The notes under the pieces: generated by a model
The model's input: the letters and a program-made list of their open reading frames with translations, nothing else
Database searches by the model: none
Told to the model about the DNA's origin: nothing
DNA from: Caldibacillus thermoamylovorans
GTDB taxonomy: Bacteria > Bacillota > Bacilli > Bacillales > Caldibacillaceae
Direction: 5' to 3'
DNA: 64,000 bases
Assembly: GCF_000751775.1 (NCBI RefSeq)
Contig: NZ_CCRF01000022.1
Coordinates: 1 to 64,000 of the forward strand
Made by a program: the position numbers and the translations under genes
Shown: positions 3,652 through 47,628 of the stretch, piece after piece
Layout of the letters: each line of letters opens with the position of its first letter
How positions within the stretch are numbered: position 1 is the stretch's first letter

Positions 3652-3836
3652 ATTTATAGCAAAAGGAGTTGTTTGAAATAGAATATAGTAAAAACTGATA
3701 TGTTTGGTAAAGAAGAGGCAAACAAGTATGAGATGGAAATTTGAATCTCTGTTGTTTAATTTAGGCTTTAGTTGCACGGGAATAAAGATGTTTTTTTAAA
3801 AAGTGTAGTTTATGAATTGAAATGGGGTAATATTTT

Positions 3837-10147: not shown

Positions 10148-10365
10148 GAATCATGGATTGGAGAATACGAATAAAACATTCATGTTCTAAAAGCATATCA
10201 CTGTGAATGGAAAAGATTCACATCATGTGAGCATGATTGAATCACGCACATCCGTATCGAAAAATTCTTCTAATAGTATTTTTGTCTCAACATGCTATGA
10301 AACTATTTTTTATGAAACGAACCGGTGTGGATTTATCGTATTACGATGATTTCTTACCTTTTGTC

Positions 10366-10398
10366 AAGCTCCGAGTATCGCTCGCGAGCTTTATTTAT
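10366..10398 (+). terminator. Probable riboswitch terminator before pbuG
   Basis: AAGCTCCGAG and its partner CTCGCGAGCTT form a hairpin (one bulge) followed by the T-rich TTATTTATTTGAG and TTTTT. It lies about 220 bases after the aptamer, an unusually long expression platform; the antiterminator pairing is not obvious. Confidence 0.55.
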
Positions 10399-10451
10399 TT
10401 GAGTTTTTGTGTGAATAATCAGAAAACTAACAAAAGAAAGGTAAGGGGAGT

Positions 10452-11756
10452 ATGAAAAATTATTTTGAGTTTGATAAATTGGGAACAAATTTTAGGACAG
10501 AGTTTATTGCCGGCTTAACTACCTTTTTAGCGATGGCTTATATATTGTTCGTCAATCCGCATACTCTGTCGGCAACGGGAATGGACCAAGGTGCCCTTTT
10601 TACAGCAACGGCTTTGGCTGCAGCAATCGGTTCTTTCGTTATGGGAATCGTGGCAAAATATCCGGTCGCACTAGCTCCGGGTATGGGGTTGAATGCGTTT
10701 TTTGCTTATACGGTTGTTTTAGGCTATGGAATTCCTTGGGAAACAGCGTTGTCGGGAGTTCTTGTTTCAGGTGTTGTTCTTGTTATATTAACAATGACCG
10801 GAATTCGTGAAATGATTATCAATGCCATTCCTGAAAGTTTAAAATATGCGGTTAGCGCCGGGATTGGTTTATTTATTGCTTTTGTCGGATTGATTAATGC
10901 GGGATTTGTTGTTAATAATGATGCTACATTGGTTGGGATTGGCGATTTGACATCTCCAACTGTATTGCTTGCTATTTTCGGACTTCTTATTTCTTCTATT
11001 TTATTGACAATAGGTATTAAAGCAGGTATTTTCTATGGAATGATTATTACTTCTATTGTCGGGATGATTTTCGGACTTGTTCCCCACCCGACAGGACTTA
11101 ATGATATAATCGGACCGGTGCCAAGTTTAGAACCGGCATTTGGTCAAGCCCTTTTCCATTTGCAAGATATTTTTTCTATACAAATGCTTGTAGTTATTTT
11201 AACTTTCATGTTTGTTGATTTCTTTGATACTGCAGGTACATTAATGGCTGTTGCAACACAGGCAGGAATCATGGAAAACGGGAAATTACCCCGGGCAGGA
11301 CGTGCATTGACTGCTGACTCATCCGGGACTGTTTTTGGGGCAATTTTAGGTACATCAAGTACGACCTCTTATGTTGAATCGACAGCAGGTGTGGCTGTAG
11401 GAGGAAAATCCGGATTAACAGCGGTTGTCACTGCGGTATTTTTCCTGTTAGCATTAGTATTTTCACCATTATTGGAAATTGTTACTTCTCAAGTGACTGC
11501 ACCAGCTTTGATCATTGTCGGGGTATTAATGGCATCCAATTTAAAATTTGTTGAATGGGATCAAATTGAAATTGCCATCCCTGCATTTTTTACGGTGTTA
11601 ATGATGCCATTAACATACAGTATTGCAACCGGAATTGCAGTCGGGTTTATTTTCTATCCGATAACGATGCTTGTTAAAGGTCGGGTCAAAGAAATTCACC
11701 CGATTATGTATATATTAGCGGTTATTTTCATCCTTTATTTTACTTTTTTGAGTTGA
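10452..11756 (+). CDS. pbuG: Hypoxanthine/guanine permease
   Basis: A 434-aa NCS2 (AzgA-type) transporter that imports hypoxanthine and guanine by proton symport across the cytoplasmic membrane. The N-terminal FRTEFIAGLTTFLAMAYILF and APGMGLNAFFAY segments and the FVDFFDTAGTLMAVATQAG motif are signatures of this family; around 12-14 hydrophobic helices are visible. AAAGGTAAGGGGAGT precedes the ATG. Regulation by a PurR box and a guanine aptamer fits a purine-salvage importer. Monocistronic with its own terminator. Confidence 0.96.
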   Translation: MKNYFEFDKLGTNFRTEFIAGLTTFLAMAYILFVNPHTLSATGMDQGALFTATALAAAIGSFVMGIVAKYPVALAPGMGLNAFFAYTVVLGYGIPWETALSGVLVSGVVLVILTMTGIREMIINAIPESLKYAVSAGIGLFIAFVGLINAGFVVNNDATLVGIGDLTSPTVLLAIFGLLISSILLTIGIKAGIFYGMIITSIVGMIFGLVPHPTGLNDIIGPVPSLEPAFGQALFHLQDIFSIQMLVVILTFMFVDFFDTAGTLMAVATQAGIMENGKLPRAGRALTADSSGTVFGAILGTSSTTSYVESTAGVAVGGKSGLTAVVTAVFFLLALVFSPLLEIVTSQVTAPALIIVGVLMASNLKFVEWDQIEIAIPAFFTVLMMPLTYSIATGIAVGFIFYPITMLVKGRVKEIHPIMYILAVIFILYFTFLS

Positions 11757-45569: not shown

Positions 45570-45599
45570 GGAAGCCTTGTAGCAGGGGCTTCCTTTTTT
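45570..45599 (+). terminator. Terminator after ppdK
   Basis: GGAAGCC and GGCTTCC pair and are followed by six T. The adjacent mobile element inserted directly into or next to this T run. Confidence 0.88.
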
Positions 45600-45918
45600 A
45601 AAAGGCTATGTCACAACATATGGTTTGCAACTATCTTGTATGGAACAACCTTGTAAACTATGCCAAGCCAAGGAAAGTGATATAGAGAAAAGGAACATCT
45701 TTTTGACTTTCGTGTTGGCCAAATTGAAAACAGATAAATGTAGAGATTTATCAAACAGACCAGCAGTTCCACTGGTCGCATAAGAATTATACAAATCATA
45801 ATTTGTCTTTTTGTTGGATAAATAGAAGATATATAGAACAATTTTACGAGCTTTAGTTCTTCCTCACTAATATACCCAACAGCTTACCACGACTATAAAT
45901 CTTGAATGTTAATATGCG

Positions 45919-45951
45919 TTGCTTGTAGCAACGGGCAGTTCCTCATACAAT
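45919..45951 (+). promoter_or_regulatory. Possible promoter/operator of the element's XRE gene
   Basis: The palindrome GTTGCTTGTAGCAAC (45919-45933) overlaps a TTGTAG -35-like box (45923-45928), which is 17 bases from TACAAT (45946-45951). Autoregulation by the encoded protein is plausible. Confidence 0.45.
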
Positions 45952-45986
45952 AGTGGTAACGACTGAAAGAAAGGAGGTTATCCCTA

Positions 45987-46496
45987 ATGTTAAGCGAAAA
46001 CATTAAAGCAATCAGAAAATCAAAAGGACTTTCGCAAGAAGAACTTGCTATCAAGCTGAATGTGGTGCGACAAACAATCTCTAAATGGGAGCGAGGATTG
46101 TCAGTTCCCGATTCTGATATGTTAATCTCCATATCGGAAGTGCTTGAAACACCGGTAAGCACTTTGCTTGGGGAAACTGTTATTGAGTCGAAAGTTGATG
46201 ACTTAAAAGCGATTTCCGAAAAACTGGAGATTATAAACTTACAACTTGCACAAAGGAAAACCACGAGAAGAAAAATACTTCATTGGCTACTTATCTCATT
46301 GTGTACGGTCATAGTAACAATTTCTGCGGTCTTAATAGTATTAAATAGTCCTTACTTAGGTTGGAATTATAATGACCCTGAAACCACCGTTATCGGAGTA
46401 ATTTTTCACGCATTTGAATGGCTGTTTGTCAGATTAGCACCGATTATCCTTATAGGGGCAATCGTTGGAATTTTCTTGACACGGAAGAAAGTATAA
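45987..46496 (+). CDS. XRE-family regulator with C-terminal membrane anchor
   Basis: A 169-aa protein: XRE helix-turn-helix (residues about 5-60; SQEELAIKLNVVRQTISKWE, then LSVPDSDMLISISEVLE), a short coiled linker (ISEKLEIINLQLAQRKTTRRK), and two membrane helices (about 92-112 and 140-164). It is probably a membrane-tethered DNA-binding protein. AAAGGAGGT precedes the ATG. It is the only gene of the 1-kb element; its target and signal are unknown. Confidence 0.88.
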   Translation: MLSENIKAIRKSKGLSQEELAIKLNVVRQTISKWERGLSVPDSDMLISISEVLETPVSTLLGETVIESKVDDLKAISEKLEIINLQLAQRKTTRRKILHWLLISLCTVIVTISAVLIVLNSPYLGWNYNDPETTVIGVIFHAFEWLFVRLAPIILIGAIVGIFLTRKKV

Positions 46497-46761
46497 AACT
46501 TCTCTATTTTTGGGTACAGTTCAGACTTCAAAATCCCAGATTGTAGGAGAGTTTTAATGCTCTCATACAAAAAAATCTCATTTATCAACTATTTGTTGTG
46601 ACATAGCCTTTTAAAAAATAATTGGTATTGAGGGATTTTGGGAATAGAGGGCACATCAACCATTATCTTAATAATAATAAAAACCTCAGAACATGTAAAT
46701 TTCTGCACAATTTATTATATAATAACTGGTAGAGGCGAAAAAAATAATAAGGGTGAACTTC

Positions 46762-47214: not shown

Positions 47215-47269
47215 CTTGTCATATTGAAGATTCTTCAAGCACTTATTTGTGCGTAAGGCACAGTAGTTT

Positions 47270-47628
47270 GTCCCATAGACCGTGAATCCGGGAATTCTAT
47301 GGGACATTTTATTTTACTTTTCAACTAAATTTGTCCCATACAGCTGTTCTATGAGACATTTCTGTTTCAAATTCCGTCGTTTTTGTCCCATAGACCGTGA
47401 ATCCGGTACATCTATGGGACATTTCAGCTTATTTTTCAACTAATTTTGTCCCATAGAGCTGTTCTATGAGACATTTCTGTTTCAAATTCCGTCGTTTTTG
47501 TCCCATAGACCGTGAATCCGGGAATTCTATGGGACATTTTATTTTACTTTTCAACTAAATTTGTCCCATAGAGCTGTTCTATGAGACACTTCTGTTTCAA
47601 ATTCCGTCGTTTTTGTCTCATAGACCCT
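47270..47628. repeat. Three tandem 115-bp repeats, each with two hairpins
   Basis: Units at 47270-47384, 47385-47499 and 47500-47614, then a partial unit to about 47628. Each carries hairpin A (TGTCCCATAGA ... TCTATGGGACA, about 18-base loop) and hairpin B (TGTCCCATAGA, short loop, TCTATGAGACA with one mismatch), separated by AT-rich spacers ending CGTCGTTTTT. Units differ at only a few positions. No reading frame runs through. Confidence 0.95.

Follow-up and report, generated by a model that had tools for sequence, protein, structure and literature searches.

MTnSag1 and tISCpe8 are described, in the available part of the source, as elements with 25-bp inverted repeats, 8-bp duplications and A/T-rich targets, which carry one passenger gene and an IS1595 transposase (PMC5704250). 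The same text reports the MTnSag1-type mini-transposon for lincosamide resistance and states that MTnSag1 is mobilised by Tn916; its lnu(C) gene is said there to hold a transfer origin (PMC5704250). For ISApl4, another IS1595 element, 8-bp duplications are given, preferably A/T-rich (PMC12561309, accessible part). Mobile insertion cassettes are named in the excerpted text of PMC3129680 among the insertion sequence (IS) derivatives that have no transposase of their own, some of which can be activated by a cognate transposase. MIC231 is stated to go with IS231 of the IS4 family (PMC2266710, excerpt), and BcrR is listed among the transmembrane one-component regulators (PMC10269533, excerpt).

The element described here was compared with these systems. 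It agrees with MTnSag1/tISSag10 in its ends, the 8-bp duplication, the 3′ end of the transposase gene, the sequence of the right end and the presence of a single passenger gene behind the transposase and ahead of that right end. Unlike these relatives, it has lost nearly all of the transposase gene to deletion and carries a regulator of the XRE/membrane type in place of the resistance gene, and with lnu(C) the transfer origin ascribed to that gene in the accessible text is absent. With MIC231 and other mobile insertion cassettes it shares IS ends and a passenger without a working transposase; the name mobile insertion cassette implies a passenger gene. Whereas MIC231 is paired with IS231 according to the excerpt cited above, no helper IS was found in the draft genome that harbors the present element. 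The encoded protein resembles BcrR, as far as the latter's partial description allows, in uniting a DNA-binding domain with membrane helices in a single chain. BcrR belongs to the XRE type, has four membrane helices and is encoded beside its resistance genes; the protein studied here has two, and its gene is not accompanied by a conserved target. Neither the cassette nor the dispersed gene was described in the literature on IS1595 passengers, mobile cassettes and membrane regulators that could be searched, part of it as excerpts and with subscription papers mostly outside the search.

The window is the whole stretch of 64,000 nucleotides analyzed (Caldibacillus thermoamylovorans, contig NZ_CCRF01000022.1, positions 1 to 64,000). 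The element within it is very probably a mobile insertion cassette of the MTnSag1/tISSag10 group of the IS1595 family, with a history that we infer from its parts and, as its passenger, a putatively self-repressing membrane regulator that apparently changes vehicles. The kind of element is known and the cargo is new: a mini-transposon of the MTnSag1 type can carry a regulator, not just lincosamide resistance.

Structure of the 1,005-bp insertion

The insertion covers positions 45604-46608 and is bordered by the ppdK gene on one side and a DUF1694 gene on the other. The features of its IS part and its surroundings are as follows.

45570-45599, plus strand: intrinsic terminator of ppdK, stem at 45570-45593 followed by six T (terminator scan and sequence)
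45596-45603, no strand: left copy of the 8-bp target duplication TTTTAAAA (sequence; perfect 8-bp duplications in six of six sister elements)
45604-45628, plus strand: left terminal inverted repeat, 25 bp, the first 15 perfect (end search and end comparison)
45628-45783, plus strand: 3′ remnant of an ISSag10-type IS1595 transposase gene (85-87% DNA identity)
46531-46608, plus strand: right end homologous to the tISSag10 right end, 81% (alignment to L086)
46541-46570, plus strand: hairpin followed by an A run within the right end (fold; whole-stretch z of −1.18, weak)
46584-46608, minus strand: right terminal inverted repeat, 25 bp, 24 of 25 positions as in the MTnSag1-type end (end comparison)
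46609-46616, no strand: right copy of the 8-bp target duplication TTTTAAAA (sequence)

The 15-bp perfect ends, the 8-bp duplication and the length of 1,005 bp, as proposed in a first-pass annotation of the window, were borne out by the end search and the sequence. GGCTATGTCACAACA occurs exactly at 45604-45618 on the plus strand and at 46594-46608 on the minus strand, which are the tips of the element; with up to three mismatches, three matches were found in the window versus 1.17 expected by chance, the element ends being the two exact ones. Over 25 bp, including the perfect 15, the two ends agree at 20 positions. The 15-bp tip is the same as one end of an MTnSag1/tISSag10 relative, and the left 25-bp end matches the MTnSag1-type end at 19-20 of 25 positions, in line with the repeats of about 25 bp of this group.

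TTTTAAAA is present on both sides of the element, an 8-bp, A/T-rich duplication of the kind made by the tISSag10 group. Because TTTTAAAA is palindromic and consists of A and T only, it is a weak sign of duplication by itself, and the palindrome also explains why the visible inverted repeat extends into the flanks. The duplication becomes convincing because perfect 8-bp duplications flank all six lnu(C) sister elements in which both ends are present, counted without any filter on duplication; one of them (TACCCTAA) is less A/T-rich. Kinship with these elements is stronger evidence for the duplication than the sequence of TTTTAAAA itself.

The insertion had been placed in the T run of the ppdK terminator. 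It does overlap the end of this run, but six T remain and the terminator consequently looks intact. Farther downstream, after the DUF1694 gene, the raw sequence of the window shows a stretch at 47260-47400 in which TTTGTCCCATAGACCGTGA is repeated.

Relationship to IS1595-type transposons

The element had been annotated as having no transposase, which is nearly right: positions 45628-45783 are the 3′ end of an ISSag10-type transposase gene and comprise its last ~50 codons and the stop. In the alignment, this remnant is 85% identical to the L086 element and 87% identical to ISCco2 in L087, and the translation of its in-frame end (45664-45780) shares 90% identity with residues 307-345 of the transposase. 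The transposase of the relative contains a DDE_Tnp_IS1595 domain at residues 147-299 (E=2.8e-13) and an IS1595 zinc ribbon (Pfam); no Pfam family matched the in-frame remnant. Compared with the relative, approximately 950 bp are absent between the left tip and the remnant, among them the start of the gene and the part encoding the catalytic domain; a 5-bp duplication (CCAAG) lies within the remnant itself. With only the last ~50 transposase codons left, the element encodes no IS1595 transposase and is thus a derivative rather than an autonomous member of the family.

The XRE gene begins ~200 bp past the transposase stop and lies ahead of the conserved right end, the passenger position, where it occupies the place that lnu(C) has in the relatives (45987-46496). 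The hairpin of the right end, which was not called a terminator by the scan, is found at the same position in tISSag10. A blastn search of plasmid and phage records matched cargo and IS part separately: some records aligned with the cargo, different ones with the left and right sides of the element. The latter matches lie in IS1595-like ISSag10/ISCco2 elements carrying lnu(C) or other genes. Judged by these alignments, the element is derived from the MTnSag1/tISSag10 group of the IS1595 family. As it has IS ends and a passenger gene and is devoid of a functional transposase, it falls under the mobile insertion cassettes. A miniature inverted-repeat element (MITE), which is short and non-coding, is ruled out by the intact gene, which belongs to a family under purifying selection.

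What the DNA shows directly are IS ends, an 8-bp duplication, the terminal ~50 transposase codons and a passenger gene in the passenger position. Capture, deletion and insertion, in whatever order, are the events that would account for them: a tISSag10-like element would have carried or captured the gene for the XRE/membrane regulator, an internal deletion would have taken out most of the transposase, and a transposase, encoded by the element itself if the deletion came later or provided in trans if it came earlier, would have inserted the element beside the ppdK terminator. The junctions bear on the capture. After the transposase stop follows an AAATC..ATTTG stretch similar to the sequence behind the stop in L260 and to the start of the cargo block elsewhere, and at the right junction the cargo homology (up to 46560) overlaps the IS homology (from 46531). 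It is plausible that the cargo was captured by joining at such short similar stretches.

L260 itself (G822, clostridial class sample) contains a truncated ISSag10-type transposase remnant that is not framed by ends of this kind. Directly behind it lies the gene of a hydrophobic protein of 169 amino acids, and the locus is possibly a second decayed cassette with another cargo.

Distribution of the element

In the first-pass annotation, the reading as a mobile unit had been made dependent on further copies, on an empty site and on the element not being fixed in relatives. The outcome is mixed, since neither a second copy nor a clean empty site was found, yet the element is not fixed. The cassette is single-copy in its own genome, where GGCTATGTCACAACA ends with at most one mismatch occur only at the element. 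A search for the ISSag10 transposase in this genome, at E values up to 0.001, returned the element's own remnant only; with the assembly in draft state (106 contigs), a collapsed helper is possible. A full-length element with matching ends and a transposase that carries the XRE gene was likewise not found in the genomes searched. Among the loci analyzed, paired ends with up to three mismatches, taken unfiltered, were present in this element and the six lnu(C) elements; the one further pair, in L165, is poor and has no duplication.

None of the seven other genomes of the family matched the element. Among 397 other Bacilli, there was no match over the cargo, and eight genomes gave partial or short matches, two of which are lnu(C) elements. 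In a sample of 391 genomes of the clostridial class, 46 matched; those listed correspond to copies of the cargo, to pieces of the IS or to short stretches, none of them spanning both the IS part and the cargo. In both of these larger searches at most two candidates were scored per genome and some matches may be absent from the listing, so that misses are possible. Fixation among relatives is at odds with these counts (0 of 7 in the family, 0 of 397 Bacilli over the cargo). In the only other genome of the genus (G001), the element is absent and ~2.3 kb of other DNA are located between ppdK and the next gene; as the ppdK match stops before the terminator and this other DNA is present, G001 does not offer a clean empty site. 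The end of ppdK had no DNA match in the other six family genomes. Since neither a second copy nor an intact matching transposase was found in the draft genome, and a clean empty site was not found either, the movement of the window copy is read from its anatomy.

IS1595-family transposases are encoded in G001, 38% identical to that of ISSag10. Two copies of such a transposase (L280 and L281) are identical over 1,428 bp, which suggests a recently active IS1595 element in this sister species. In another genome of the same family, a 1,455-bp IS1595-type element (L283) has GGCTCTGT tips and an 8-bp duplication; for the cassette ends it is a candidate only. A tip pair of the GGCTCTGT type was not present in the other three stretches examined.

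The state of the window copy could also be that of a dead relic, i.e., a full tISSag10-like transposon with XRE cargo that arrived here and lost its transposase by deletion in place, so that the cassette as such never moved. This explanation, which like the others discussed below is compatible with its rivals and with the main reading, has close to an even chance of being right, if slightly less. It agrees with the single copy and the lack of a helper in the draft genome, and the similarly truncated remnant of L260, which lacks such ends, indicates that deletions of this type happen elsewhere. However, the perfect ends and duplications, the intact XRE frame and the short end branch of the regulator in the tree (0.019) argue that decay has been slight, and slight decay is compatible with a deletion before or after the insertion alike.

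The passenger gene and its promoter

Returning to the mobile insertion cassette as the preferred reading, its cargo is the more interesting part: a solitary regulator of the membrane type whose presumed operator is conserved and which occurs among unrelated neighbors and in at least two kinds of vehicle. The features of the cargo are listed below.

45793-46560, plus strand: cargo block, with homologs in Clostridia and other groups at up to 93% DNA identity (outermost match limits)
45917-45933, no strand: palindrome CGTTGC-TTGTA-GCAACG (CGTTGCTTGTAGCAACG), presumed operator (sequence)
45923-45951, plus strand: proposed promoter TTGTAG-17-TACAAT, whose −35 box overlaps the palindrome (read by eye)
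45972-45977, plus strand: ribosome-binding site AGGAGG (sequence)
45987-46496, plus strand: gene of the XRE-family membrane regulator, 169 amino acids (list of open reading frames; Pfam HTH_3)
46002-46160, plus strand: helix-turn-helix (HTH) domain, residues 6-58 (HTH_3, E=1.2e-14)
46281-46343, plus strand: first membrane helix, approximately residues 99-119 (hydropathy and model)
46416-46481, plus strand: second membrane helix, approximately residues 144-165, after a conserved loop (hydropathy, model and alignment)

Pfam, hydropathy and the structure model all support the earlier description of a passenger-carrying mini-element with a single gene for an XRE domain and two helices. The model (pLDDT 76, with a low pTM of 0.31) shows the HTH, a long helix at residues 67-120 and a further helix at residues 131-168. 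Among solved chains, SinR, CylR2 and the XRE regulator of ICEBs1 were matched in the HTH region (E ~1e-5); the membrane part is not covered and the likeness to these proteins is confined to the HTH. The regulator is thus predicted to consist of an HTH and two membrane helices in one chain, which is the layout of a transmembrane one-component regulator. An ungapped, stop-free reading frame of full length is present in 78 of the 80 best copies. For these 78, the median dN/dS to the window copy is 0.16, with a lower value for the HTH (0.08) than for the membrane part (0.27), ratios which indicate that the gene is under purifying selection.

The assumption that the XRE gene has a palindrome-bearing promoter region of its own is supported, with the palindrome located at 45917-45933. 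GTTGC-N5-GCAAC is exactly conserved in 63 of 77 copies and has at most one mismatch in 75 of them, the 77 being those of the best 80 with enough upstream sequence. The proposed promoter was not listed by the promoter scan (weak −35 box). Protein and operator could form a one-component membrane switch: the two helices would anchor the regulator, the HTH would bind the palindrome over its own −35 box and repress the gene, and the conserved loop between the helices may sense something at or outside the membrane. As the palindrome overlaps a −35 box that was read by eye and is absent from the scan, autorepression is what we infer from this overlap. Five operator-like sites with up to three mismatches were found in the own genome, two of which are the palindrome itself, versus four with the reversed control. 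The regulator's own promoter is the only candidate target suggested by this search. The earlier suggestion that the unit could spread a new regulatory input gains weak support from the wide dispersal of the cargo gene; against it stand an element without a visible helper and the lack of additional operator-like sites above the control.

Occurrence of the regulator gene in other bacteria

A scan of the genome collection yielded 438 matching stretches, 325 of which encode a relative of the regulator; the analyses of dispersal cover the best 80 of these 325. The 80 align over the gene and, in nearly all cases, part of the upstream sequence, with 72-93% DNA identity. They are found in Clostridia, Erysipelotrichaceae, an Anaerolinea and a Raoultibacter, thus including Chloroflexota and Actinomycetota. 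Records of the plasmid collection add Listeria (one chromosome-sized record), Carnobacterium and Enterococcus. Four Listeria records among the phage records were matched by the cargo at 88%, and the viral collection contained seven weak relatives with at most 52% identity. In the tree, which is poorly resolved and places the window copy in no starred clade, the nearest rows are clostridial and the end branch of the window copy measures 0.019.

Outside the gene, no cluster of open reading frames and no neighbor family is common to more than seven of the 80 loci. Three clusters (2, 3 and 5) that had appeared as neighbors were discarded, as they are other frames over the XRE gene itself. Some flanking DNA is shared by L013, L014 and L016. 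Of 150 neighbor proteins chosen, 80 were scanned, and the commonest family matched three of them; among the 25 of 136 families listed, neighbors are mostly ordinary host genes, and mobile-element families are represented by one TrbL and two DDE_Tnp_1. The regulator gene apparently occurs alone in many, mostly anaerobic, bacteria. It is nearly always intact and equipped with its own palindrome, and no conserved target gene adjoins it.

In most copies, the common stretch reaches only from ~85-95 bp before the start to just past the stop. Diverged copies begin at about the same upstream place, and the right ends of six copies agree up to ~70 bp after the stop. Two copies of one genome (L075 and L197 in G428), which are located on different contigs, have 819 bp in common at 90% identity and a common right end ~70 bp past the stop. 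On the basis of these alignments, the shared upstream limit is read as a functional boundary, presumably the promoter, and not as transposon ends. None of the 80 cargo loci had paired tISSag10-type ends with up to three mismatches. Of the longest exact inverted repeats flanking the 80 copies, most were no longer than those obtained with 120 re-paired flanks, which reached 13 bp; L026 (15 bp), L084 (14 bp) and L081 (31 bp) exceeded this limit. The 31-bp repeat of L081 is inverted at 2644-2674 and 3752-3782, on either side of the XRE gene. As transposon ends it was rejected, since the repeat is internally palindromic and a target duplication is absent.

Association with Tn916-type remnants

When eight Clostridioides genomes were searched with one locus (37 of at least 240 candidates scored per genome), at least four further full copies were present among the matches listed. 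These four lie in or beside remnants, two of them with pieces of Tn916-type integrases. The copy in G433 is located within an insert of ~1.36 kb (net) that is absent from the relative G434, with a near-direct repeat at the insert edges. This insert also holds a fragment that matches the Pfam family Integrase_DNA ("DNA binding domain of tn916 integrase", E=6.7e-8) as well as solved Int chains. The copy in G429 is adjoined by a fragment that matches the same solved Int chains (6emy and others, E=1e-10); no Pfam family was matched by it. The two copies in G431 have 1,004 bp in common, and one of them has a Rep_trans domain (PF02486) nearby, which we take to be a Tn916-type gene. The integrase fragment of G433 had no match in the 80 best cargo loci, so that the link to Tn916 holds for Clostridioides only. 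In the comparison of L278 and L279, which come from two Clostridioides genomes, two further gaps of ~160 and ~204 bp (L278 ~10299-10459 and 10867-11071) were noted beside the XRE insert.

The regulator apparently changes vehicles, as it is found in the IS1595 cassette and, in Clostridioides, beside Tn916-type remnants; its gene would move between vehicles that include the cassette and Tn916-type conjugative elements. A Tn916 with an XRE membrane regulator was not found in the literature searched, from which subscription papers were mostly missing. A different history would make the regulator an accessory or control gene of Tn916-type elements that was stranded by their decay, one stranded copy having been taken up by the cassette. 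All four further full Clostridioides copies listed (G433, G429 and two in G431) lie near such pieces, in G433 together with an integrase fragment in the ~1.36-kb insert that the relative does not have, and the mobilisation of MTnSag1 by Tn916 (PMC5704250, accessible part) fits as well. Nevertheless, the G433 fragment is unmatched in the 80 best loci and mobile-element neighbors are few (one TrbL and two DDE_Tnp_1 in 80 proteins, among the 25 of 136 families listed), and we regard this history as a tentative one that is probably not correct. That the cargo is not specially mobile at all, but a useful gene transferred by general recombination and captured once by chance, would suit the mostly ordinary host genes among the neighbor families listed and the flanking inverted repeats, which apart from three stay within the range of the re-paired flanks, but is rather unlikely in view of up to 93% DNA identity across families, the rows in Chloroflexota and Actinomycetota and the pair of copies that G428 has on separate contigs (819 bp at 90%).

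Within the preferred reading, i.e., a mobile insertion cassette with a vehicle-changing passenger, a more far-reaching proposal can be made, which we consider speculative and unlikely to apply as a whole. The XRE/membrane gene and its ~82-bp promoter-operator would be a self-contained module that hops between vehicles and has itself as its only constant target; it would have been spread across several phyla by IS1595 cassettes, Tn916-type conjugative elements or any other element at hand. Selection on this solitary membrane sensor would have maintained it, perhaps because the regulator controls the entry or activity of mobile elements or rewires host genes in trans. If the gene is such a mobile sensor module, the regulator would spread for its own sake or for an effect in trans that is yet unseen, and the conserved loop would make its signal testable.

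In the copy of Oscillibacter valericigenes (L015), an insert of ~645 bp (2340-2985) is located just before the ribosome-binding site and parts the promoter from the gene. By eye, this insert looks like a transposase fragment.
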